Shown one piece after another: positions 3,017-13,188 of a DNA stretch of 64,000 nucleotides (the stretch's first letter is position 1; each line of letters begins with the position of its first letter). The translations under genes and the position numbers were made by a program. Under the pieces are notes generated by a model, which saw nothing but the letters and a program-made list of their open reading frames with translations, made no database searches and was not told the DNA's origin. Source of the DNA: Fulvivirga imtechensis AK7. Its GTDB lineage: Bacteria > Bacteroidota > Bacteroidia > Cytophagales > Cyclobacteriaceae. Location: contig NZ_AMZN01000001.1 of assembly GCF_000331535.1 (NCBI RefSeq), positions 1 to 64,000 on the forward strand, in the 5' to 3' direction.

Positions 3017-5008
3017 ATGAATTTTAAAGAACTCATACTTCAGGGAATACCGGATGAACTGCCTCCTAAAAAGGAGTATGATCCGTCCGTTAATCACGCA
3101 CCAAAACGCAAGGATATTTTATCTGATCAGGAAAAGAAATTAGCGATAATCAATGCGCTGAGATATTTTCATCCGAAGCATCATGGGGTATTGAGCAAGG
3201 AATTCAGTGAGGAATTGCACCAATACGGTCGTATATACATGTACCGGTTCCGTCCGGGCTATGCCATGTATGCCAGATCTATTGACGAGTATCCCTGCCA
3301 GTCGAAGCAGGCGGCAGCCATAATGCTGATGATACAAAACAACCTTGATCCCGCGGTTGCACAGCATCCCCATGAACTGATCACCTATGGGGGAAATGGC
3401 GCGGTGTTCCAAAACTGGGCTCAGTACCTGCTTACTATGCAGTACCTGGCCACTATGACTGATGAGCAGACCCTTCATATGTACTCAGGCCATCCGCTGG
3501 GGCTGTTTCCTTCCTCCAAAGGAGCGCCACGTGCGGTGGTGACCAATGGCATGATGATACCCAACTACTCCAAACAGGACGATTGGGAAAAATACAACGC
3601 CTTAGGAGTAACCCAATATGGCCAAATGACCGCAGGGTCCTATATGTATATCGGGCCTCAAGGTATCGTACATGGCACTACTATTACTGTGCTTAATGCC
3701 GGTCGTAAGATCGCTAAAAATGGAGAGGGGCTTGCTGGTAAATTGTTTGTATCTTCAGGGTTAGGTGGTATGAGTGGCGCTCAGCCAAAGGCAGGCAATA
3801 TTGCGGGATGTATCTCTATTGTAGCCGAGGTCAACCCCAAGGCCATCCACACCCGTCATTCTCAGGGATGGGTCGATGAAGTGATAGAAGATATGCACTC
3901 GCTTATTCAGAGGGTGAAAAAGGCTAAGGATGTTAAAGAGGTAGTATCCATTGCCTACCATGGTAACATTGTTGAAATATGGGAAGAATTTGATAAAGCC
4001 GGAGTTTATATTGATATGGGTTCTGATCAGACGTCTCTGCACAACCCATGGGCAGGCGGCTATTATCCCGTAACACTCTCATTTGAAGATGCCAATGCAA
4101 TGATGGCTTCAGACCCGACTCAGTTCAAAGAACATGTGAAGGAGTCATTAAGAAGGCAGGCTACTGCTATCAACAAGCACACGGCAAAGGGCACTTACTT
4201 TTTTGATTATGGGAATGCCTTCTTACTGGAAGCATCCAGGGCAGGAGCCGACATCATGGCTGAAAATGGTATAGATTTCAGGTACCCTTCCTACGTACAG
4301 GATATTATGGGGCCTATGTGTTTTGACTATGGCTTCGGGCCTTTCAGGTGGGTATGCACGAGTGGAAAAGCAGAGGATCTCGAAAAAACGGATCAGTTAG
4401 CTGCTGATGTACTTGAAGAGATCATGCGTAACTCACCAGCAGAAATACAACAGCAGATGGGTGATAACATACGCTGGATCAGGGCTGCCGGTGAAAATAA
4501 ACTGGTGGTAGGGTCTCAGGCCAGGATCTTATATGCAGATGCTGAAGGTAGAATGAAGATCGCTTCGGCATTTAATGAAGCCATCAAACGCGGAGAAATT
4601 GGACCGGTTGTGCTCGGGAGAGACCACCACGATGTTTCCGGCACGGATAGTCCATACAGGGAGACATCTAATATCTATGATGGCTCACGCTTCACTGCTG
4701 ATATGGCCATTCAGAATGTAATTGGTGATGCCTTCAGAGGAGCTACCTGGATATCTATTCATAACGGTGGTGGTGTAGGCTGGGGAGAGGTGATCAACGG
4801 AGGATTCGGCATGTTGCTTGACGGAAGTGAGGAAGCGCAACAGAGATTGGAGAACATGCTTTTCTATGACGTGAACAACGGCATAGCGAGAAGAAGCTGG
4901 GCCCGGAATGAAGGGGCGGTCTTTGCGATTAAACGAGAAATGGAGAGAAATCCTAATTTAAAAGTTACGGTACCATATTCTGTTAAAAATGATGATTTTT
5001 TTCGTTAA
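3017..5008 (+). CDS. hutU: urocanate hydratase (long form)
   Basis: Urocanase converts urocanate to imidazolonepropionate with tightly bound NAD+, the second step of histidine degradation. The glycine-rich stretches YGGNGAVFQNW, GLGGMSGAQPKA and FRWVCTSG (holding the conserved Cys) and the C-terminal NGGGVGWGEVINGG are hallmark urocanase segments. At 663 residues it is about 100 longer than the classical proteobacterial enzyme, which agrees with the long subgroup I know from Bacteroidota. No hutH, hutI or hutG lies next to it; a hutD-like gene is at 49682. It seems to be transcribed alone. Confidence 0.96.
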   Translation: MNFKELILQGIPDELPPKKEYDPSVNHAPKRKDILSDQEKKLAIINALRYFHPKHHGVLSKEFSEELHQYGRIYMYRFRPGYAMYARSIDEYPCQSKQAAAIMLMIQNNLDPAVAQHPHELITYGGNGAVFQNWAQYLLTMQYLATMTDEQTLHMYSGHPLGLFPSSKGAPRAVVTNGMMIPNYSKQDDWEKYNALGVTQYGQMTAGSYMYIGPQGIVHGTTITVLNAGRKIAKNGEGLAGKLFVSSGLGGMSGAQPKAGNIAGCISIVAEVNPKAIHTRHSQGWVDEVIEDMHSLIQRVKKAKDVKEVVSIAYHGNIVEIWEEFDKAGVYIDMGSDQTSLHNPWAGGYYPVTLSFEDANAMMASDPTQFKEHVKESLRRQATAINKHTAKGTYFFDYGNAFLLEASRAGADIMAENGIDFRYPSYVQDIMGPMCFDYGFGPFRWVCTSGKAEDLEKTDQLAADVLEEIMRNSPAEIQQQMGDNIRWIRAAGENKLVVGSQARILYADAEGRMKIASAFNEAIKRGEIGPVVLGRDHHDVSGTDSPYRETSNIYDGSRFTADMAIQNVIGDAFRGATWISIHNGGGVGWGEVINGGFGMLLDGSEEAQQRLENMLFYDVNNGIARRSWARNEGAVFAIKREMERNPNLKVTVPYSVKNDDFFR

Positions 5009-5128: not shown

Positions 5129-5785
5129 ATGAAAAAAGTATTACTTTCTATTTTTGCAGTTATTGCTTTTGCTGCAACATCTAATGCGCAAGTTAACTTT
5201 GGTGTTAAAGCTGGTCTAAACCTTGCGGATCTTGCATCTTCTGAAGACGAGTTTGAAGCGGATTCAAAAATTGGTTTGCACCTAGGTGGATATGTTGAGT
5301 TATCTCTTTCTGATAAGTTTGCTTTACAGCCAGAATTAGTTTATTCCGCTCAGGGAGCGAAATCTGAGTTTTCAGGAGAGGAAGATTTGGGCGGAGGAAT
5401 TATTGGAACTTACTCTGAAGAATATAACCTTAAATTGAACTACCTGAACGTACCGGTATTGTTTAAATTTAAACCTTCTGAATCATTTTATATAGGAGCA
5501 GGTCCTCAATTAGGCTTACTTCTGAGTGCAAATTCTGAATATGACTACACTGTTACTGCTTCTGGAATATCGGTTTCTGATTCTGGCGAGGAAGATGTGA
5601 AAGATGAAATGAAAGGAATGGATTTGTCTTTTGCCATCGGTGCTGGACTGGAGCTTGAGAGCGGTTTGAACTTCGGTTTACGATACAACTACGGCCTGTC
5701 TGATGTATATGATAAGAATGAAGGAGATGCTGTAAGAAACTCTGTTCTTCAATTTTCTGTAGGATTCAGATTGACAAATAACTAA
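5129..5785 (+). CDS. PorT-like beta-barrel outer-membrane protein
   Basis: A 218-residue exported protein with a signal peptide (MKKVLLSIFAVIAFAATSNA, cut before Q). The mature part consists of alternating amphipathic strands with aromatic girdles, as expected of an eight-stranded outer-membrane barrel. NFGVKAGLNLADL near the start, FALQPELVYSAQGA in the middle and GLRYNYGLSDVYD near the end recur in the neighbours at 8087 and 8705. The family (OMP_b-brl_2/PorT-like) has mostly unknown function. It is the first of six related genes to 9316 and has a strong promoter. Family-1 repeat copy A follows 9 bases after its stop. Confidence 0.88.
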   Translation: MKKVLLSIFAVIAFAATSNAQVNFGVKAGLNLADLASSEDEFEADSKIGLHLGGYVELSLSDKFALQPELVYSAQGAKSEFSGEEDLGGGIIGTYSEEYNLKLNYLNVPVLFKFKPSESFYIGAGPQLGLLLSANSEYDYTVTASGISVSDSGEEDVKDEMKGMDLSFAIGAGLELESGLNFGLRYNYGLSDVYDKNEGDAVRNSVLQFSVGFRLTNN

Positions 5786-5794
5786 AATATTAAG

Positions 5795-5948
5795 TAGTGT
5801 TTGTAAGAAAGCTCTAAGTGGCTTTAAGAAAAGGTTCCCGCTAAAGAGCAGGATGAAGTTCAAAAAAGCAGTAGTCCCGTACAGTTGTCGGGAAGAGTAT
5901 TTTTGGAACGAGTGTAACGCGAACATTGGCGTTTTCTTAGAGACACTA
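5795..5948. mobile_element. family-1 MITE-like element, copy A
   Basis: A 154-bp non-coding element with imperfect 16-bp inverted ends: TAGTGTTTGTAAGAAA on the left and, read inward from the right, TAGTGTCTCTAAGAAA. The left subterminal block CTCTAAGTGGCTTTAAGAAA and the right subterminal block with AACGAG, GTAACGC and ACATTGG recur in copies D and E. It has no reading frame of note. It lies just after an OMP gene and before a terminator. Confidence 0.8.
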
Positions 5949-5962
5949 AGTAAATAAATTGG

Positions 5963-5992
5963 AGCCGGAGTGTATTGCACTTCGGCTTTTTT
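5963..5992 (+). terminator. rho-independent terminator
   Basis: The stem AGCCGGAGTG/CACTTCGGCT (10 positions, one mismatch) runs into TTTTTT. It would stop transcripts that pass through copy A from the OMP gene at 5129. Confidence 0.75.
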
Positions 5993-6046
5993 GTTGATAA
6001 ATAAAATTTGTCAGATATTTACCTCTTAAAACCAAAATTTACTTAT

Positions 6047-6640
6047 ATGAAAAAATTTTTACTCGTTGTCTTTGCTTTAGTTGGTTTCTTGGCTTCAGTG
6101 AATGCGCAAACTGAAAAAGGTTCTATTACTGCCGGAGGAAATATTTCGATAGACTTTGAAAAAGAGAAATTCAAATCGGGAAGTACCACCGTAGATGTGG
6201 GAAACAATACTTCTTTTACTTTTAATCCTTTAGTTGGATTTTTTATTATGGATGGGCTGGCTGCGGGCTTGGAGGTTAACCTTCAGACGTCAAAATTTAA
6301 ATCAGATGATGATACGTTTGAGTCAAAGTTCAATGCTATATCCATAGGTCCATTTGTTAAATATTATCATACAAGTGGCGCCTTCGGGATGGGAAGTATT
6401 GGCTTTGGGTCTGCAAAATCCGAATCAACAAATAACAATAACACCAATGAAGCGGAATTTGGTCTGTTTACATGGCGGTTAGGGGGAGGCTATGCGCTGT
6501 TTCTTAATGATCATGTTTCTCTTGAGCCCATGCTTTCTTATGGGTCATTTGTCACTAAAGATAAAGACTCAGATCAGGACGAAAAGGATATTACCAATGG
6601 TTTTCAGATTAGTGTGGGGTTCCACATCTTTTTGAAATGA
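6047..6640 (+). CDS. beta-barrel outer-membrane protein
   Basis: A 197-residue exported protein. I chose the ATG that begins MKKFLLVVFALVGFLASVNAQ, a clear signal peptide, over an upstream ATG that would add 13 unlikely residues. The rest is strand-rich: GSITAGGNISIDF, FTFNPLVGFFIMDGLAAGLEVNL, FVKYYHT, TWRLGGGYALFLNDHVSLEPMLSYGS and the C-terminal strand ending GFHIFLK. This fits a small OmpA-like or OMP_b-brl barrel, related more distantly to its neighbours. It ends about 28 bases before a bidirectional terminator shared with the convergent gene at 7285. Confidence 0.85.
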   Translation: MKKFLLVVFALVGFLASVNAQTEKGSITAGGNISIDFEKEKFKSGSTTVDVGNNTSFTFNPLVGFFIMDGLAAGLEVNLQTSKFKSDDDTFESKFNAISIGPFVKYYHTSGAFGMGSIGFGSAKSESTNNNNTNEAEFGLFTWRLGGGYALFLNDHVSLEPMLSYGSFVTKDKDSDQDEKDITNGFQISVGFHIFLK

Positions 6641-6667
6641 CATTTATTGGGTAGCACCCTGGAAATG

Positions 6668-6703
6668 AAAAAGGACTGTCATGTTGATCAGTCCTTTTCT
6701 ATT
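6668..6703. terminator. bidirectional terminator between convergent OMP genes
   Basis: AAAAGGACTG and CAGTCCTTTT form a 10-bp stem with about 10 bases of loop. It is flanked by A-rich sequence on the left and T-rich on the right, so it can work for both the + gene ending at 6640 and the - gene ending at 6722. Confidence 0.7.
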
Positions 6704-6721
6704 TTTGATAGTATATGTGTT

Positions 6722-7285
6722 TTATTTTTTACCTCCGAAAATAAAAGCACCTATTCTTATGCCAATGTAGCTGTTCTTGAACTCATATTCTATGGTTTCA
6801 GTGCCGAATTGCATACTGTCTTCTGTTTTAGGAATAATGTTGTAGTCAATATTAATATTGAAATGCCCAATATCAGCACCAATTCTTGGATATAATCCGA
6901 ATTTAGAACTGGCATCAAGTTTAAGATCTGCATCATCAAAACCTACAGAAGCGATTGAATATAAACCAAATCCAAGTCCTACATAAGGACGGAAGGTGTT
7001 ATCGCTCAGATAGTACTGCCCGTTTAGAGTATAGGAGCCATTTGTTGAAATGTCAGCCTCGGTATTATCAATACTCTTAGCCATTGCAGCCCATTCCATT
7101 CTTAAACCAACTGCAATAGCATCGTTAACCCTATAAGCAGGTTCAATGGCAAAAAGAACACCGCCACCACCATCTGGTATGGCATAGCCTAATCCTAATC
7201 CAAGCTTAAAAGGCTTGTAATTTTGTGCGTTTACGGTTGCAAAAGCAACAAAAAGTAACGCAATAGAAAAGAAAAATTTTTTCAT
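6722..7285 (-). CDS. beta-barrel outer-membrane protein
   Basis: A 187-residue exported protein on the opposite strand to its relatives, with signal peptide MKKFFFSIALLFVAFATVNA and mature start QNYKPF. Strands such as FKLGLGLGYAIPDGGGGV, AIEPAYRVNDAIAVGLRMEW, YYLSDNTFRPYVGLGFGLY, KFGLYPRIGADIGHFNINIDYN and the last strand SYIGIRIGAFIFGGKK describe a small membrane barrel of the OmpW/OMP_b-brl kind. No substrate is predictable. Confidence 0.86.
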   Translation of the reverse strand: MKKFFFSIALLFVAFATVNAQNYKPFKLGLGLGYAIPDGGGGVLFAIEPAYRVNDAIAVGLRMEWAAMAKSIDNTEADISTNGSYTLNGQYYLSDNTFRPYVGLGFGLYSIASVGFDDADLKLDASSKFGLYPRIGADIGHFNINIDYNIIPKTEDSMQFGTETIEYEFKNSYIGIRIGAFIFGGKK

Positions 7286-7509
7286 AAAAAGTAAGTTTTG
7301 GTTATAAAAATTTTTTCAAAATAGTGATAAAAATGAATATGTCAAATTCTTTTTCGATAGTTTTTTGATCAACTAAATAAGATGAAGTAGAAATATACTA
7401 ACATTATCCAATGTTATAGTAGTTCATCTTGAGGCCTTTAGCTTACTTTATGGTCCTTTTTTGTATATATTTATCAAAATAAAAAAACTAAAACCAAAAC
7501 TGATAAATT

Positions 7510-8003
7510 ATGAAAAAGCTGTTACTAACATTTGGTATTGTCTCCTCAATCATCACCTTTTCGAATGCCCAAGGTATAACGTTAGGAGGTGGGTTGGCTT
7601 ACGGTACAGAAATAGACGAGTTGGGATTAGGGTTTGACGCTGAATTTTATCTTAAAGATAACCTGTCCATTTCTCCTGATCTTATCATTTACTTCGTAGA
7701 TGACTCCCGTTTTGTCGACCGTGGTTTTGGGAGATCAATGCCAATATAAACTATTATTTTCTTCAGGAAAGCTCAGTCGATGTATATGGAGTTGGAGGCT
7801 TGAGTTTGGGCACCGTTAAGGTGAAATACGATGATGGTAATATCAGGTATAAGGACACGAATTCCGAACTGGGCCTGAATTTGGGAATAGGCACCAACCT
7901 GAATTTAGGAGGTAGCATTAAACCTTTTGCGGAATTTAAATTTACCATAAGTGATTTTGACCAGGCCGTACTGTTTTTCGGGGTTAAGTACGACTTAAAG
8001 TAG
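7510..8003 (+). pseudogene. frameshifted beta-barrel outer-membrane protein
   Basis: The first frame (7510-7749) encodes the signal peptide MKKLLLTFGIVSSIITFSNA and early strands (GITLGGGLAYGTEIDELGLGFDAEFYLKDNLSISPDLIIYFVDD), then ends in a nonsense tail. From about 7722 another frame reads continuously as barrel strands (FWEINANINYYFLQESS, then GVGGLSLGTVKV) to the stop at 8003, ending FFGVKYDLK. A stop in the second frame at 7701 places the break between about 7704 and 7730, near TTTTGGG. Joined, the product would be about 163 residues, close to its neighbours. It may be a true pseudogene, a recent shift or a sequencing error. Confidence 0.8.
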
Positions 8004-8086
8004 TATTTGTTCGAAAAACTTATGCAGAGACAAATTATTTATAGCCTTTTTTTATATTGCGGCTAACAATCAAAAGAAAACTAACT

Positions 8087-8635
8087 ATGAAAAAACTAAC
8101 TATTCTAGTCTTACTCTTGGCTGCCACCATGGCAGGGGCTAATGCTCAAGTAGGTTTGGGTGTTAAGGCAGGATTAAATTTTGCTAACTTAGATGCAGCA
8201 GGTGACCCGGATGCAAAAACCGGATATCATTTTGGTGCTTTTGCAGAAATTGGATTGGGAGGCATTGCCTTACAACCTGAGTTGTTGTTTTCAGCAAAGG
8301 GAGCAGAGGATTTTGATTTAAGTTATCTTGAAATTCCAATTTTGCTCAAGAAAAATTTTGCTAAAGTTCTAAATATCCATTTAGGACCTCAATTTGGCAT
8401 TTTAACAAAGGCTGAAGCAGATTTTGGAACTGGTAGTGAAGACATCAAAGATAGCCTTAAGTCATCGGATTTAAGCTTGGTGGCTGGTGCAGGTGTAAAC
8501 CTACCTATGGGATTGGTTGGAGGAGCAAGGTACGTTCTGGGGCTTTCTGACATCAATGACTTTGAGGGGAGTGACTCCGACATAAAAAACAAAACCTTCC
8601 AGGTATATGTAGGCTGGAAATTTGCCGGTAACTAA
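8087..8635 (+). CDS. PorT-like beta-barrel outer-membrane protein
   Basis: A 182-residue protein starting MKKLTILVLLLAATMAGANAQ; an ATG 10 codons upstream would spoil the signal peptide. VGLGVKAGLNFANLDA, GGIALQPELLFSAKGAEDF and GARYVLGLSDINDFEGSD align by eye with the genes at 5129 and 8705, so the three are recent paralogues within the array. Mature strands fit an eight-stranded outer-membrane barrel. A strong terminator follows 25 bases downstream. Confidence 0.88.
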   Translation: MKKLTILVLLLAATMAGANAQVGLGVKAGLNFANLDAAGDPDAKTGYHFGAFAEIGLGGIALQPELLFSAKGAEDFDLSYLEIPILLKKNFAKVLNIHLGPQFGILTKAEADFGTGSEDIKDSLKSSDLSLVAGAGVNLPMGLVGGARYVLGLSDINDFEGSDSDIKNKTFQVYVGWKFAGN

Positions 8636-8660
8636 TAGTACAAATATACGTTTTATATCT

Positions 8661-8687
8661 AGCCCCGTTTTTGCGGGGCTTTTTTTA
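8661..8687 (+). terminator. rho-independent terminator
   Basis: AGCCCCG and CGGGGCT form a 7-bp GC-rich stem around TTTTTG, followed by TTTTTTT. It is the strongest intrinsic terminator in the window. Confidence 0.9.
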
Positions 8688-8704
8688 TAACAAAAATATA
8701 AACC

Positions 8705-9316
8705 ATGAAAAAACTACCATTACTAATTGCTCTTTGTCTATTTGGTTTTATTATTGGATCTCATGCTCAGGTAAGCGCACGACTGGGAGTAAAAGCCGGC
8801 CCTAACTTTGCAAATGTAGATGCAAAAAGTTCTTTTGGGGAAAAATATAATTCTCGTACTGGCTTTCACGCTGGTGCTTTTGCCACTTTTAAATTTACCA
8901 AGTTGGCGGTTCAGCCAGAATTGATTTTTTCAAAACAGGGCTCAACCATAGATTTTAATGGAGAGGATCTGGATAGGAATTATTCCTATTTTAATATCCC
9001 TGTAATGCTAAAGTTGTATTTATTAGGAGGATTGAACCTGCAAGTCGGCCCGCAGTTCGGCTTTTTGGCCTCAGCCAAGGGTGATGTTTTAGACGGGCTT
9101 GGAAACAAATCAGAAGAAGACATCAAAGATGAACTAAAAGGCTCAGAGATCAGTCTCGGGCTGGGTGCCGGATGGGACCTGCCTTTTGGACTTACGGTAG
9201 ATGCACGTTATAACCTGGGTTTATCTGATATCAACGACAATGAGGCTTCACCTGAAGCAAAAAATCAGGTGTTTCAGGTTTCCATAGGTTACCGGCTTAT
9301 TCAGTTGGGAAAATAA
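8705..9316 (+). CDS. PorT-like beta-barrel outer-membrane protein
   Basis: A 203-residue exported protein (signal MKKLPLLIALCLFGFIIGSHA, then Q). It repeats the array's signature: RLGVKAGPNFANVDA, KLAVQPELIFSKQGS, NLQVGPQFGFLASAKGD, EEDIKDELKGSEISLGLGAGW and DARYNLGLSDINDNE. The acidic EEDIKDELKG segment is shared with 5129 (EEDVKDEMKG) and 8087 (SEDIKDSLKS), a conserved loop of these paralogues. A promoter must lie in the 17 bases after the upstream terminator or overlap it, or the gene is expressed by read-through. Confidence 0.88.
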   Translation: MKKLPLLIALCLFGFIIGSHAQVSARLGVKAGPNFANVDAKSSFGEKYNSRTGFHAGAFATFKFTKLAVQPELIFSKQGSTIDFNGEDLDRNYSYFNIPVMLKLYLLGGLNLQVGPQFGFLASAKGDVLDGLGNKSEEDIKDELKGSEISLGLGAGWDLPFGLTVDARYNLGLSDINDNEASPEAKNQVFQVSIGYRLIQLGK

Positions 9317-9446: not shown

Positions 9447-9482
9447 AGAAGCCTTGTCATGCGACAAGGCTTCTCTTTCTTC
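9447..9482 (+). terminator. rho-independent terminator
   Basis: AGAAGCCTTGTC and GACAAGGCTTCT form a 12-bp perfect stem with a 4-base loop, followed by CTTTCTT. It separates the OMP array from the FGase operon. Confidence 0.75.
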
Positions 9483-9516: not shown

Positions 9517-10302
9517 ATGGCAAGAATAAAAATACAACACGGCAAATCGCCCATAGTAGTATGTGCTATTCACAACGGCCATAATATCCGGCCGGAGGTG
9601 CTTCCTTACCTGAATTTATCTGAAGCCGAACGTTTGCGTGAGGAAGACCCTTATACCACCGAATGGCTCTATATATCGGATAATACCATAAAATTAACTG
9701 TCTCCAGATTTGAGCTGGACATCAACAGGCCCCGGGAAAAGGCTGTGTACCTCAAGCCGGAAGACGCCTGGGATCTTCAGGTGTGGAAACAAGATCTCCC
9801 GCAGCAAATTGTAGATAACTCTCTACAACTGTATGACGAATTCTATGATCAGATAGAAGCCTATTTTGATCAACTGTTTCACGAACACGAATGGCTGGTA
9901 ATATACGACCTGCATTCCTACAATTATCGCAGGGGAGGGGTAGATCAATATTCCAGTCCGGAGGGAAACCCTGAGATAAACCTGGGGACCCAAAATCTTA
10001 ACCGGTCGGTTTGGACTCCTGTTATTGACACAATGCTTCAATCCTTTCGGGAGTTCAATTTTGAAGGCCGACACCTCGATGTACGGGAAAATGTAAAATT
10101 TGGTGGTGGCTACTTCAGTAAGTGGCTTTATCAGAAATATGGCGACCGCATCTGTCCTGTGGCTTTGGAGTTTAAAAAGTTTTTCATGGATGAATGGACT
10201 GGCGAGCAGGATGACAGGAAGATCCAACATATCAGGGAGTTGCTGATCGCTTCTATTAATCCTGTAAAAGAAGCCGCCTCCAAAATAAAAGTGTCGGTAT
10301 AA
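9517..10302 (+). CDS. N-formylglutamate amidohydrolase-like enzyme
   Basis: A 261-residue cytosolic protein of the N-formylglutamate amidohydrolase (FGase) family, zinc hydrolases that cleave N-acyl amino acids. Motifs: HNGH (19-22), REEDP (41-45), SRFELDINRPR (63-73), DLHSY (131-135), GGYF (197-200) and E218. It opens a tight three-gene operon; the next start is one base after its stop. The name suggests HutG in histidine breakdown, and hutU and hutD are in the window, but its constant companions here are a DUF1704 peptidase and an ATP-grasp ligase. The true substrate is more likely an amide or small peptide of that system (inference). Confidence 0.85.
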   Translation: MARIKIQHGKSPIVVCAIHNGHNIRPEVLPYLNLSEAERLREEDPYTTEWLYISDNTIKLTVSRFELDINRPREKAVYLKPEDAWDLQVWKQDLPQQIVDNSLQLYDEFYDQIEAYFDQLFHEHEWLVIYDLHSYNYRRGGVDQYSSPEGNPEINLGTQNLNRSVWTPVIDTMLQSFREFNFEGRHLDVRENVKFGGGYFSKWLYQKYGDRICPVALEFKKFFMDEWTGEQDDRKIQHIRELLIASINPVKEAASKIKVSV

Positions 10303-10303
10303 T

Positions 10304-12145
10304 ATGATTGAACAATCTTTTATCCAATCCATCTGCAAGTCATTAAAAAGAGGTAAGAGCGTTAATCGTCTATTACCGGATGGTGGAAAAATAGTTATTG
10401 ATCAATTGCTGCCTTATATCTGTATTTACAGGTATCCTGCTGATCACCAGGATGTTTACCTGTCGGGTATTCTGCGTACGCAAGCGGCCTATATTCTGGT
10501 TAGTCAGGACCTGGATATCAGGGAGTTGGTTCGCTGTATAGCGTCAACGGTTTCCTCACGATTTAAGGCGATGATGATCATTGAAATGTGGCCGGGCAAG
10601 GGAGCTGATATCGAAGCATTTAAAGTGTTGTGCCCAAGTGAAAGAGCACCGGCTACAGCTAGGGCACTAAAGGAAGGCCTGGAAGAGGTAAAGCTGGACT
10701 ATCCACAGTTGTCAGTAGAGGTTATTGATACTAAGCACCGTCATCCCGATGGCTTACCAGAGTTGCTGTCTATTGATCAATCAAAAGAAGCGGGCAGCTT
10801 GATTATCGGTATTGAAGTGCCACCTATATATATCAGTGCTAATAAGGCATACTTTGCTCTCTTATACAGGAAATTGAGAACCCGGTTATCGAAGGTGCTG
10901 AAGCGCGCTGCGTTTGAATTTGTAAGGGTACAGACCGCCAACGAATTTACGCATTATCTCATGATGGGCAAGACCCGCCTGACGCAACTTGTACGGTCTG
11001 CGGATCAGAGAATAGCAGAGGTGAGTGAGCGAATGAATTTTCTTATGCGCGTGACACCTGTCAATGATGTTACAGCATGGGAAAAATTTAAGGAAAGCAA
11101 GTTTCAGAAAGTACCGTCATTTAAATACCGGCTAATTCCGCTAGATCCTGAGCTCGAAAAGAGGAAGCTTTATAGCATAGAACTGGAAAGGATAGAAGAT
11201 CCTACGCTTGCATTTCTTTTTAGGAGCAAAAGAAAGGAACTGGAGCTCCAGCTCTCCATGCTTGAGGCAAGGCAAAAGCAAAGTTTCAGGCACCTGAGTC
11301 AGAGTTTGTTCGGAGAGATACCTGAGAGCACTAAACGACTTGCAAAGGATATTCTCAGCAATATCTCGCTTGCAAATACCACTGGTGCGAAGAAAATGAA
11401 ATGCTATGAATTTGCAGAATTAGCAAAAAGGGAAATAGCTATATATCAGGAAAAATTTCCTGAAATAAAAATAGGAGTAGAGATCAGGCATGATGTTACT
11501 GGTCTGATGGTTTCCAAATCAATGCTGCTCGTGGGGGATACGCTTTCTATAAATCCGGCAAGGGCAGAGGCTTTGATCCAGCACGAAGTGGGGACACATA
11601 TATTGACCTATTGTAACGGTAAAAGACAGCCCATCCATCAAATGTATGCAGGTCTTGATAGCTATGACCAGCTTCAGGAAGGGCTGGCGGTATTGGCAGA
11701 ATACTTTACCGGAGGGCTTACAGCCGGCAGGTTGCGGTTGCTGGCTGCAAGGGTACTAGCTGCTGACCTTATGGTGAAAGATGCCGATTTTATTGAGACT
11801 TTCAGATATTTAAAGGATGAATTGGACTTTCCACCGGTAAGCTCTTTTGACATTACTGCAAGAATATTCCGCGGTGGCGGGTTCACCAAAGATGCAGTTT
11901 ACCTGCGTGGATTGGAACAGTTGCTGAAATTTCTTCATAAGGGGGGCAATATCGAGACGCTCTATCTGGGAAAGTTTGACCTCAAACATGTTAGCTTTAT
12001 TGAAGAACTGTTGCACAGAACTGTTCTTAAAAAACCAGTATTGCCTCCTTTTTTAAAGCAAAATATAGTTGAAAAAAAATTAGAAAAAATCCGCCAGGGT
12101 ATGTCACCGCTGGCGCTGTTGGAACCATTGCAACAACTAAATTGA
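10304..12145 (+). CDS. DUF1704 / QEGLA-motif metallopeptidase (MATCAP-like)
   Basis: A 613-residue protein of the family annotated flavohemoglobin-expression-modulating QEGLA protein (DUF1704). The catalytic motif HEVGTH is at 427-432 (His427, Glu428, His432) and QEGLA at 458-462 supplies the third-ligand Glu459. The same HExGTH plus QEGLA-type arrangement is found in eukaryotic MATCAP enzymes, which remove C-terminal tyrosine from tubulin, so a C-terminal carboxypeptidase role is plausible here. The N-terminal 200 residues contain an additional all-alpha/beta region with no motif I recognise. No signal peptide, so cytosolic. It sits between the FGase-like gene and the ATP-grasp gene. Confidence 0.85.
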   Translation: MIEQSFIQSICKSLKRGKSVNRLLPDGGKIVIDQLLPYICIYRYPADHQDVYLSGILRTQAAYILVSQDLDIRELVRCIASTVSSRFKAMMIIEMWPGKGADIEAFKVLCPSERAPATARALKEGLEEVKLDYPQLSVEVIDTKHRHPDGLPELLSIDQSKEAGSLIIGIEVPPIYISANKAYFALLYRKLRTRLSKVLKRAAFEFVRVQTANEFTHYLMMGKTRLTQLVRSADQRIAEVSERMNFLMRVTPVNDVTAWEKFKESKFQKVPSFKYRLIPLDPELEKRKLYSIELERIEDPTLAFLFRSKRKELELQLSMLEARQKQSFRHLSQSLFGEIPESTKRLAKDILSNISLANTTGAKKMKCYEFAELAKREIAIYQEKFPEIKIGVEIRHDVTGLMVSKSMLLVGDTLSINPARAEALIQHEVGTHILTYCNGKRQPIHQMYAGLDSYDQLQEGLAVLAEYFTGGLTAGRLRLLAARVLAADLMVKDADFIETFRYLKDELDFPPVSSFDITARIFRGGGFTKDAVYLRGLEQLLKFLHKGGNIETLYLGKFDLKHVSFIEELLHRTVLKKPVLPPFLKQNIVEKKLEKIRQGMSPLALLEPLQQLN

Positions 12146-12147
12146 AA

Positions 12148-13188
12148 ATGAAAATAGCATTTATAATCAACGATATAAAAACCGAAAAAAAAGGGTACAC
12201 TACAGTAGATCTGGCTCTTACCGCCCATAGAATGGGGCATGAGATATATGTGATAGGGGCCGGAGAGCTGGCTTATGCTTCTGATGGCTTTATGACCGCA
12301 CGAGCCTACATAGTACAGGAAACAAAGTACAAGTCTGCCGAGAATTTTTTGAAGGCTCTTCAGAAGTCCGACCCGGTAACGATCAACGCTAAGGATCTGG
12401 ATGTCTTGTTTATCAGGAATGATCCCTCCGATGATATGAATGACCGCACCTGGGCGCAGAATTCACCGTATGTTTTTGGGCAGATCGCTATGCGAAACGG
12501 TGTATTGGTGCTGAACCATCCCGTAACGCTGCCCAATTCCATTAATAAGATGTATTTTCAGCACTTCCCAGAGATTATACGTCCAAAAACTATTATCACC
12601 CGGGATGTTCGGGAGATAGAGGATTTTTTTAAAGAGCAGAAAAGCAGGATGATCCTGAAACCACTTCAGGGCTCAGGAGGGAAAAATGTGTTTTTGATAG
12701 AAGAAAAAACAAAGAAAAACCTGAAGCAGATAATAGAAGCCATAAGCCGGGATGGTTATATCATTGCCCAGGAGTATCTGCCTAAGGCAGTTGATGGCGA
12801 CACTCGTATGTTTTTAATGAATGGTGAGCCACTAGTGGTGAATGGCAAGTATGCGGCTATCAGGCGTGTTAATAATAATGGAGATATCCGGAGCAACATA
12901 CATGCTGGCGGGCATCCGGAAAAAGCAAAAGTAGATGATGATATGCTCAGGCTGGCCGATGCCCTTCGACCGAAACTGATCCAGGATGGAATGTTCCTGA
13001 TCGGTATCGACATAGTAGGGGATAAGCTAATGGAAGTAAATGTTTTCAGCCCGGGCACATTAAATATTATGTCAAAAACATATGGAGTGGACTTTAGTAA
13101 GGCGGTTATCCAATCCATAGAACGCAAGATCAGGTACAAGGAAATATACGGACCGGATGTGAATAATGCTACATTAGCAGTCCTGTAG
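12148..13188 (+). CDS. ATP-grasp ligase (glutathione synthetase / RimK-like)
   Basis: A 346-residue ATP-grasp enzyme. These form amide bonds between a carboxylate, activated as acyl phosphate, and an amine. RMILKPLQGSGGKNVFLIEE is the ATP-binding lid, AQEYLPKAVDGDTRMFLMNGEP the central strand, and GIDIVGDKLMEVNVFSPG the Mg2+-binding end with Asp and Glu-x-Asn. The N-terminal domain (MKIAFIINDI) resembles prokaryotic glutathione synthetase GshB, but no gshA-type partner is nearby. I used the ATG three bases after the upstream stop; a TTG two codons earlier overlaps it. It is the last gene of the FGase-DUF1704 operon, so a non-glutathione product should be considered. Confidence 0.85.
   Translation: MKIAFIINDIKTEKKGYTTVDLALTAHRMGHEIYVIGAGELAYASDGFMTARAYIVQETKYKSAENFLKALQKSDPVTINAKDLDVLFIRNDPSDDMNDRTWAQNSPYVFGQIAMRNGVLVLNHPVTLPNSINKMYFQHFPEIIRPKTIITRDVREIEDFFKEQKSRMILKPLQGSGGKNVFLIEEKTKKNLKQIIEAISRDGYIIAQEYLPKAVDGDTRMFLMNGEPLVVNGKYAAIRRVNNNGDIRSNIHAGGHPEKAKVDDDMLRLADALRPKLIQDGMFLIGIDIVGDKLMEVNVFSPGTLNIMSKTYGVDFSKAVIQSIERKIRYKEIYGPDVNNATLAVL

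Follow-up and report, generated by a model that had tools for sequence, protein, structure and literature searches.

Three adjoining genes in the window (the whole 64,000-nucleotide stretch of Fulvivirga imtechensis AK7 DNA that was analysed) form a real and widespread bacterial enzyme set that, judging from sequence, would build and then dismantle an amide-linked small molecule. They encode an FGase-family amidohydrolase of 261 aa (9517..10302, + strand; Pfam FGase PF05013, E=7.5e-20), a MATCAP/DUF1704/QEGLA metallopeptidase of 613 aa (10304..12145, +; MATCAP PF08014, E=2.2e-89, residues 260-591) and a GshB-like ATP-grasp amide ligase of 346 aa (12148..13188, +; GSH-S_ATP PF02955, E=4.3e-52; PF08443 RimK, E=2e-21), the last length being counted from an ATG and the mechanical ORF beginning at the TTG at 12142. 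The gaps between them are 1 bp and 2 bp, in agreement with the first-pass annotation, which had described three tightly packed genes of these families, and the FGase, MATCAP and ATP-grasp Pfam profiles are all matched. A terminator-like hairpin with a 12-bp stem separates the operon from the gene upstream (9447..9474, +; consensus scan); it has the longest stem among the terminator-like sites of the region, which are weak as a class since five are seen against 3.6 expected (sd 2.1).

The linkage of these genes is conserved across bacteria. In the main set of 92 loci (window included), the named members of which are the best 80 of at least 574 by similarity to the window MATCAP, 90 have the ligase at most 4 kb away from MATCAP; it is on the same strand in 87 and no more than 200 bp from the catalytic domain in 82. 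The third enzyme is an FGase in 61 loci, as in the window itself, and a member of the AspA/AstE family in 21 (HGNE being present in 21/21), never both; nine loci carry the ligase with neither hydrolase nearby, and some of these, not all, are close to contig ends. On the tree, one event in one clade accounts for the exchange of FGase for AspA, which thus lacks independent repetition. In a sample of the window's phylum, the ligase (E<=1e-30) occurs in 11 of 12 MATCAP genomes and in 0 of 186 others (Fisher p 3e-17, uncorrected for kinship), and in two phylum samples all ligase genomes at this threshold carry MATCAP (11/11 and 11/11). Rare linkage in other genomes, which the first-pass annotation had named in advance as grounds for abandoning its proposal, is not what was found, since the module is conserved in about a dozen phyla; no other gene recurs across them. 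Additionally, several loci carry tandem ligases, which suggests stepwise addition.

The operon claim is limited to the long/fused MATCAP clade and its flavobacterial kin, because the short-form MATCAP mostly stands alone. This form makes up 27 of the 40 gammaproteobacterial regions, where two copies have a ligase-like gene on the opposite strand and none has an FGase. The tree sets 28 short-form rows apart from the operon-type MATCAP rows, each group on its own side. The gammaproteobacterial sample comprises 41 of 47 match rows (G348, G198, two partial G478 rows and two broken G228 rows were excluded), and two of its 40 regions were detected with the better HMM and missed with another.

On the basis of homology, the middle gene is predicted to encode a zinc carboxypeptidase. 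Its product scores 300 bits against PF08014 (cut-off 27) and falls short of the TIGR02421 QEGLA hypothetical equivalog cut-off (316 vs 339 bits). The HEVGTH zinc motif at residues 427-432 (11582..11599, +) and the QEGLA motif at residues 458-462 (11675..11689, +) sit exactly where they had been placed initially; HE...H and QEG are each found in 136/136 MATCAP rows, and H427, E428, H432, Q458, E459 and G460 show no variation among 49 aligned long-form rows (window included). By analogy with the EEG motif reported for TMCP1, QEGLA would be the third-ligand region (PMC10499314). The likeness to eukaryotic MATCAP that had been drawn from these motifs extends to structure, as the top fold match of the predicted model (pLDDT 94.2) is human apo MATCAP 7z5g (E 1.5e-8, TM 0.70 by target). 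The bacterial protein shares its fold, the HExxxH zinc motif and the E of EEG/QEG with the eukaryotic MATCAP/TMCP tubulin carboxypeptidases (KIAA0895L, KIAA0895), which are reported to cleave off C-terminal Tyr and Glu (PMC10499314), but differs from them in the decayed FGase domain of its long form, in its operon with a ligase and an amidohydrolase, and in having no tubulin.

This decayed FGase-like domain, a pseudo-hydrolase, takes up roughly the first 229 residues of the MATCAP protein (10304..10990, +; hhalign), with its right boundary taken from where the TIGR02421 match begins, at residue 234. When long-MATCAP and FGase alignments are compared with hhalign, window residues 38-213 match FGase 74-261 (prob 93.5, E 2.3e-7, 8% identity); the half of FGase holding H19 and E43 lies outside the match, and by eye FGase H133 stands opposite W96 of the MATCAP protein. 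The region is confidently modelled in the structure prediction. Two loci (L016 and L179) encode a MATCAP fused to an FGase domain, and on a Photobacterium sp. GJ3 plasmid a type-B ligase immediately precedes an FGase-MATCAP fusion. The decayed domain and the fusions together argue that both hydrolases probably act on one molecule.

The FGase-family hydrolase clears its profile (72.5 bits vs a cut-off of 28.9 for PF05013), and residues H19, E42, E43, D44, R64, N70, R71, H133 and E218 do not vary among 33 aligned rows, that of the window being one of them. The D-x-H-x-Y-N site is kept in 67 of 70 near-full-length relatives (L032, L055 and L174 being without it) and the stricter D-x-HSYN in 43 of the 70. 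The FGase and AspA/AstE families (HutG, AstE, AspA) are hydrolases of N-acyl acidic amino acids. The closest solved fold to the AlphaFold2 model (pLDDT 95.9) is that of the N-formylglutamate amidohydrolase 2q7s (E=8e-12), and fold comparison also gives a weak match to the phage poly-gamma-glutamate hydrolase 3a9l. FGase-like folds cover other activities, an observation that we counted against an N-capped peptide as substrate (see below).

The ligase combines a GshB scaffold with a RimK-like loop. The initial comparison with tubulin tyrosine ligase (TTL) did not hold, as the window ligase is of the GshB/RimK type and misses the Pfam TTL profile PF03133 (14.8 bits vs 20.1). It passes the PRK12458 subfamily (447 bits vs 408) and remains under both GshB equivalog cut-offs (221 vs 272 and 208 vs 299 bits) and under that of RimK TIGR00768 (85 vs 143 bits). 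Of the two GshB equivalogs, PRK05246 is passed by the type-B ligase of L014 (281.6 vs 272), which fails the other (237 vs 299). Where canonical GshB has S-P-T-C (loop pattern SPT[CG]..R), the window ligase carries an S-P-G loop (residues 301-303; 13048..13056, +) after an E-x-N metal site, matching the aligned RimK chain 5zct. SPG replaces SPTC in both ligase subtypes (114/114 readable rows), with G303 in 104/105 type-A ligases (the remaining one gapped) and 10/10 of type B; T303 and R306 are present in 25/25 canonical GshB sequences, against T303 in 0/114 readable ligases and no conserved Arg at position 306, rows with fewer than 270 model positions or E > 1e-20 being left out of these counts. 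The operon ligase resembles bacterial GshB (1gsa) in overall scaffold and in the positions common to all three groups, but mean identity between groups is 28-30% and the loop differs.

These features would fit a stand-alone module, probably cytoplasmic, for making and unmaking a small peptide that is amide-linked, N-capped and probably acidic, a reading that we favour tentatively and rate somewhat below an even chance. The ligase would spend ATP to couple a free amino acid to the carboxylate of an amino acid or peptide that bears an N-cap; the MATCAP-type zinc carboxypeptidase, by homology, would take the C-terminal residue off again, probably with its decayed FGase domain as the part that recognises the capped end; and FGase, or AspA/AstE in one clade, would cleave the N-acyl cap and release the free amino acid. 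The substrate, the direction and the reversible ligation cycle itself are what we infer. Besides the linkage and the decayed domain, points in favour are the SPG loop of both ligase subtypes, the tandem ligases, the GltP-like glutamate/aspartate symporter near nine loci (see below) and the removal of C-terminal Tyr and Glu by the eukaryotic MATCAP/TMCP relatives. The closest chemical parallel may be the vertebrate NAAG (N-acetyl-aspartyl-glutamate) cycle, composed of the RIMKLA ligase, the GCPII carboxypeptidase and aspartoacylase, which employs the same ATP-grasp ligase, metallocarboxypeptidase and AspA-family deacylase chemistries, although its carboxypeptidase belongs to M28, its genes are unlinked and its substrate is established. 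A comparable trio of ligase, MATCAP and AspA-type deacylase occurs in 21/92 loci, with FGase instead in 61. The more specific proposal of a widespread and undescribed bacterial N-capped acidic peptide cycle, chemically parallel to that of NAAG and with a MATCAP relative as the carboxypeptidase, is possible and rather doubtful. The NAGGN osmolyte dipeptide system likewise links ATP-grasp-type N-acyl dipeptide synthesis to a peptidase, but draws on other enzyme families, and its ligase is fused to an acetyltransferase domain that the operon ligase lacks. Counted against the N-capped peptide is that no acyltransferase was recognised among the recurrent neighbours, the clusters of which were named by eye apart from those scanned against profiles, ten Pfam-scanned representatives among them. 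Also counted against it are the unrepeated FGase-to-AspA exchange, the nine loci with neither hydrolase nearby and the thiol-related neighbours of flavobacterial-type clusters described below.

An unlikely rival is reversible C-terminal tagging of a protein, in which the ligase would add and MATCAP remove an amino acid, with FGase recycling something released. TTL and MATCAP act in this way on tubulin, and RimK on ribosomal protein S6. The MATCAP fold and motifs and the RimK-like ligase loop are consistent with such a role, and operons pairing an ATP-grasp protein with a peptidase, with genetic antagonism between them, are reported in Pseudomonas (RimK-RimB and RloC-RloA, Rlo being connected to hypo-osmotic stress; PMC12239564), but the peptidase there is a retropepsin rather than MATCAP, and an FGase/AspA partner is not mentioned in the portion of that paper drawn on here. 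No conserved target gene was seen beside the operon, although a distant target would escape notice. Tagging also leaves no obvious role for the N-acyl-amino-acid hydrolase or for its decayed copy in the peptidase. Because an FGase or AspA/AstE partner is present in 82/92 loci and the peptidase carries a decayed FGase domain, a small N-capped molecule is favoured over a protein C-terminus; the first-pass annotation, which had proposed ligation and removal of an amino acid at the C-terminus of a protein or peptide, is supported for linkage and motifs and not, as stated, for a TTL-type ligase or a protein C-terminus as target. Nor was a conserved precursor-peptide ORF found beside the operon. Tailoring of a RiPP-like natural product, with the ligase modifying a ribosomal precursor, is very improbable: metallopeptidases are reported in several ATP-grasp graspetide loci (PMC8939145), but among 3,660 small ORFs beside 104 long/fused loci none of the 12 largest families extends beyond the window's phylum (the biggest covers 8 loci, all Pontibacter, and the rest at most 4 each), and the gene set is shared by about a dozen phyla with no further gene recurring.

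A glutathione-like thiol pathway, in which the ligase would extend gamma-Glu-Cys, or an analogue of it, by Gly or a similar residue and the hydrolases would degrade the product, is distinctly improbable. It is encouraged by the NCBIfam label 'glutathione synthetase' (PRK12458) of all three ligases scanned, by the PRK05246 match of the L014 ligase, and by neighbours of flavobacterial-type clusters that could point to thiol chemistry, namely a sulfurtransferase-like gene in 3 loci and a DCC thiol-disulfide gene in 8. Against it, GshB T303 and R306 are not kept in the 114 readable ligases; the host genome yields no PF04262 GshA, in a search that does give matches in control genomes, and its sole GCS2 protein is far under the gshA cut-offs (a PF08886 search, empty in the host, was silent in controls too and is uninformative); and three gammaproteobacterial genomes (G198, G210, G251) carry a true GshB besides the operon-type ligase. 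Comparison with curated cut-offs, the residues of the loop and the searches for GshA led us to reject glutathione synthesis as the main reading and to retain it as a rival. Given the SPG loop and the lack of a credible GshA in the two testable GshA families, the label is doubted and, on sequence grounds, probably a misannotation. Chance proximity or histidine degradation is scarcely credible. An authentic hutU is present at 3017-5008, 4.5 kb upstream of the FGase gene (413 bits vs a cut-off of 375), and FGase is of the HutG family, but the window FGase misses the HutG (N-formylglutamate deformylase) equivalog cut-off by far (36 vs 279 bits) and the same genome encodes another, stronger FGase on C46 (202 bits). 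The conserved linkage refutes this explanation, hutU being found by blastp in 0/91 other main-set loci and 0/40 gammaproteobacterial regions. A catabolic or salvage set, whose hydrolases would degrade imported N-capped peptides with the ligase as a side activity or detoxifying step, is improbable as well. In its favour, two of the three enzymes are hydrolases, nine loci have a GltP-like glutamate/aspartate symporter (so identified from NCBIfam matches of one representative, under the equivalog cut-off) no more than 5 kb upstream, the ligase being of type B in six of the nine, and one rhizobial copy adjoins sugar ABC transporter genes. The ligase, however, is the tightest partner of MATCAP (90/92 loci) and is duplicated in several, unlike an accessory gene.

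A survey by Iyer et al. in 2009, reportedly of ATP-grasp and other amidoligases to go by its title, may already include this neighbourhood. In the open-access literature searched, the bacterial operon is undescribed beyond a table in the part of PMC10308900 considered. If the N-capped peptide module is real, it would point to a class of metabolites that genes of about a dozen phyla make and remove, correct a routine 'glutathione synthetase' annotation and provide a bacterial setting for the role of the MATCAP fold outside tubulin. Many host names are those of marine bacteria, and an osmolyte role was considered for this reason. Its simple form, an osmolyte made at high salt, was dropped because the only expression data show induction at low salt (PMC10308900). 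In that study of Photobacterium damselae, an adjacent 'GshB'/QEGLA pair, matched here by annotation names and the first gene of which is called glutathione synthetase, is strongly induced at low salt (38.4x and 27.5x; PMC10308900, Table 2), and this low-salt induction is the sole physiological lead.

The three ORFs described in the first-pass annotation are present in the window, all on the forward strand: an FGase-family hydrolase (9517-10302; PF05013, E = 7.5e-20), a MATCAP/DUF1704 metallopeptidase (10304-12145; PF08014, E = 2.2e-89), which carries the HEVGTH and QEGLA motifs at the residues originally assigned to them, and an ATP-grasp ligase (12148-13188; PF02955, E = 4.3e-52), whose GshB-like identity rests on sequence profiles. 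The intergenic gaps are 1 bp and 2 bp, a terminator-like hairpin (9447-9474, + strand) sits between the operon and the upstream gene, and a convergent tyrS gene lies downstream. The FGase model (pLDDT 95.9) matches the folds of 2q7s and 2odf and, weakly, M14 carboxypeptidases and a phage poly-gamma-glutamate hydrolase. A structural comparison of the DUF1704 protein with MATCAP had been proposed, and its model (pLDDT 94.2) indeed matches human MATCAP (7z5g; TM 0.70 by target). Directly upstream of the operon are outer-membrane beta-barrel-like genes (5129-9316), two of which match NF049866 below its cut-off. The urocanate hydratase gene hutU (3017-5008; 413 bits vs. a cut-off of 375), located 4.5 kb upstream of the FGase gene, was not detected at the other loci examined.

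Among 92 MATCAP loci (L-numbers below), made up of the 80 named loci most similar to the window MATCAP (the best 80 of at least 574, many of them from MAGs), another 11 taken from the phylum sample and that of the window itself, the ligase lies within 4 kb of MATCAP at 90, on the same strand at 87 and less than 200 bp from the catalytic domain at 82. It is accompanied by FGase at 60/92 loci, by an AspA/AstE-family enzyme at 21 (PF24827 on the two representatives scanned) and by MATCAP alone at nine; FGase occurs without the ligase once (L091), and the short-form locus L013 has neither. FGase and AspA/AstE are found together at none of the 92. By record taxonomy, the 80 named loci belong to Bacteroidota (46), Pseudomonadota (8), Planctomycetota (7), Gemmatimonadota (3), Acidobacteriota, Poribacteria, Calditrichota, Kiritimatiellota, Actinomycetota and Campylobacterota (2 each), Myxococcota and Verrucomicrobiota (1 each), with two unassigned. 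Shinella and Aminobacter plasmids share the gene order, annotated there as N-formylglutamate amidohydrolase, QEGLA motif protein and glutathione synthetase. The order also occurs on a plasmid of Sinorhizobium medicae, where group II intron genes separate FGase from MATCAP, and a profile search detected all three enzymes on S. meliloti 1021 pSymB.

Co-occurrence was further assessed in two phylum samples, neither chosen for linkage, counting the ligase at E<=1e-30. MATCAP is present in 12/198 Bacteroidota genomes, 11 of which carry the ligase vs. 0/186 of the remainder (Fisher p = 3e-17), and in 21/148 planctomycete genomes (the phylum of L084), which include all 11 ligase-bearing ones (p = 3e-11), both tests being uncorrected for kinship. 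Two Bacteroidota genomes without MATCAP gave matches just past the cut-off (E = 5e-30 and 2e-26); other ATP-grasp proteins often match this search weakly.

In a tree of 135 MATCAP domains, 107 operon-type rows split from 28 short-form rows (SH-aLRT 99, at a point where, the tree tool warns, long branches meet). In a gammaproteobacterial sample (MATCAP in 43/276 genomes, 40 regions examined), 13 loci are long or fused, and of these 12 carry the ligase and 12 carry FGase; of the 27 short-form loci, two have a ligase-like gene nearby, on the opposite strand, and none has FGase. Three short-form Bacteroidota loci with ligase and FGase (L014, L015, L020) are placed within the operon clade. The exchange of FGase for AspA/AstE looks like a single event, since all 21 loci with the latter fall together on this tree (support 92). 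Before residue 234, in what is read as a decayed FGase domain, long MATCAP matches nothing in Pfam or NCBIfam; in a profile-profile comparison, residues 38-213 of the window protein align with FGase 74-261 (probability 93.5, E = 2.3e-7, 8% identity), W96 standing opposite FGase H133. In L016 and L179 (a Photobacterium plasmid), FGase is fused to MATCAP and still matches its profile, and in L016 its motifs are readable in the alignment. The simplest history would be a fusion, followed by decay of the fused copy, with a separate active FGase being kept.

The ligase has two subtypes, type A (105 rows, window included) and type B (10 rows), which were compared with 25 canonical GshB rows; type B occurs in genomes from the same class as the window, in one Winogradskyella, on one Photobacterium plasmid and in two genomes of the gammaproteobacterial sample. 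Many GshB positions are common to both subtypes. Position 303 (window ligase numbering) changes from T to G in 104/105 type A rows (the other is a gap) and 10/10 type B rows, and Arg306, present in 25/25 GshB, is conserved in neither. The type B ligase of L014, at 281.6 bits where 272 are required, clears one of the GshB equivalogs; judged on score, this counts against a non-GshB reading. PF04262 GshA was not detected in the own genome, and its sole GCS2 protein falls far under gshA model scores; a PF08886 search was empty there and in control genomes. Three operon-bearing gammaproteobacterial genomes (G198, G210, G251) additionally encode true GshB (at least 428 bits). Type A and type B ligases share one cluster around a common FGase and MATCAP in L017, L018 and L027, and two or three tandem ligase copies adjoin MATCAP in L043 (which carries a second MATCAP), L066, L067, L070, L073, L171 and L177, which suggests stepwise addition or divided roles. 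Ligase genes split between frames (L025 9831-10873, L060 9860-10923, L084 9575-10942) could reflect sequencing error or decay.

Our best estimate, held tentatively, is a make-and-trim cycle on an N-capped acidic small peptide, in which the ligase would make an amide, MATCAP would trim the C-terminal residue and FGase or AspA/AstE would remove the N-cap; that all three enzymes share an amide-linked compound is more certain than what that compound is. Reversible C-terminal tagging of a protein is rather unlikely and retains some weight because MATCAP features and RimK-like features of the ligase suit it, RimK likewise having SPG at the 303 loop. Ligase-plus-peptidase operons are already a known kind. 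Loss of the ATP-grasp protein RloC in Pseudomonas rescues the loss of Rlo peptidases, hypo-osmotic conditions included, a working precedent for antagonistic pairs (PMC12239564). A literature search, outside which lay most subscription papers and one likely survey, did not find this enzyme combination, the decayed domain or the FGase/AspA exchange described. The only physiological lead is low-salt induction in Photobacterium damselae, with increases, at 1% vs. 3% NaCl, of 38.4-fold for A0J47_RS17020 ('GshB'), 27.5-fold for A0J47_RS17025 ('QEGLA') and 52-fold for a RimK (PMC10308900); the first two, which may correspond to the ligase and MATCAP genes, have consecutive locus tags.

Other genes recur nearby. 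An M28-family peptidase lies ~4 kb upstream in eight Pontibacter loci (e.g., L038 2849-4228), and a glutamate/aspartate-type symporter lies less than 5 kb from nine loci (L014, L015, L017, L018, L020, L027, L028, L029, L031), with a DCC thiol-disulfide gene near all except L027 and a sulfurtransferase-like gene near L017, L020 and L027. The own genome has a second FGase cluster (L024 128-3332; G000:C55), in which an RLAN/RimK-like ATP-grasp gene, a GCS2-family ligase gene and an FGase gene are consecutive, a parallel ligase-plus-FGase arrangement.
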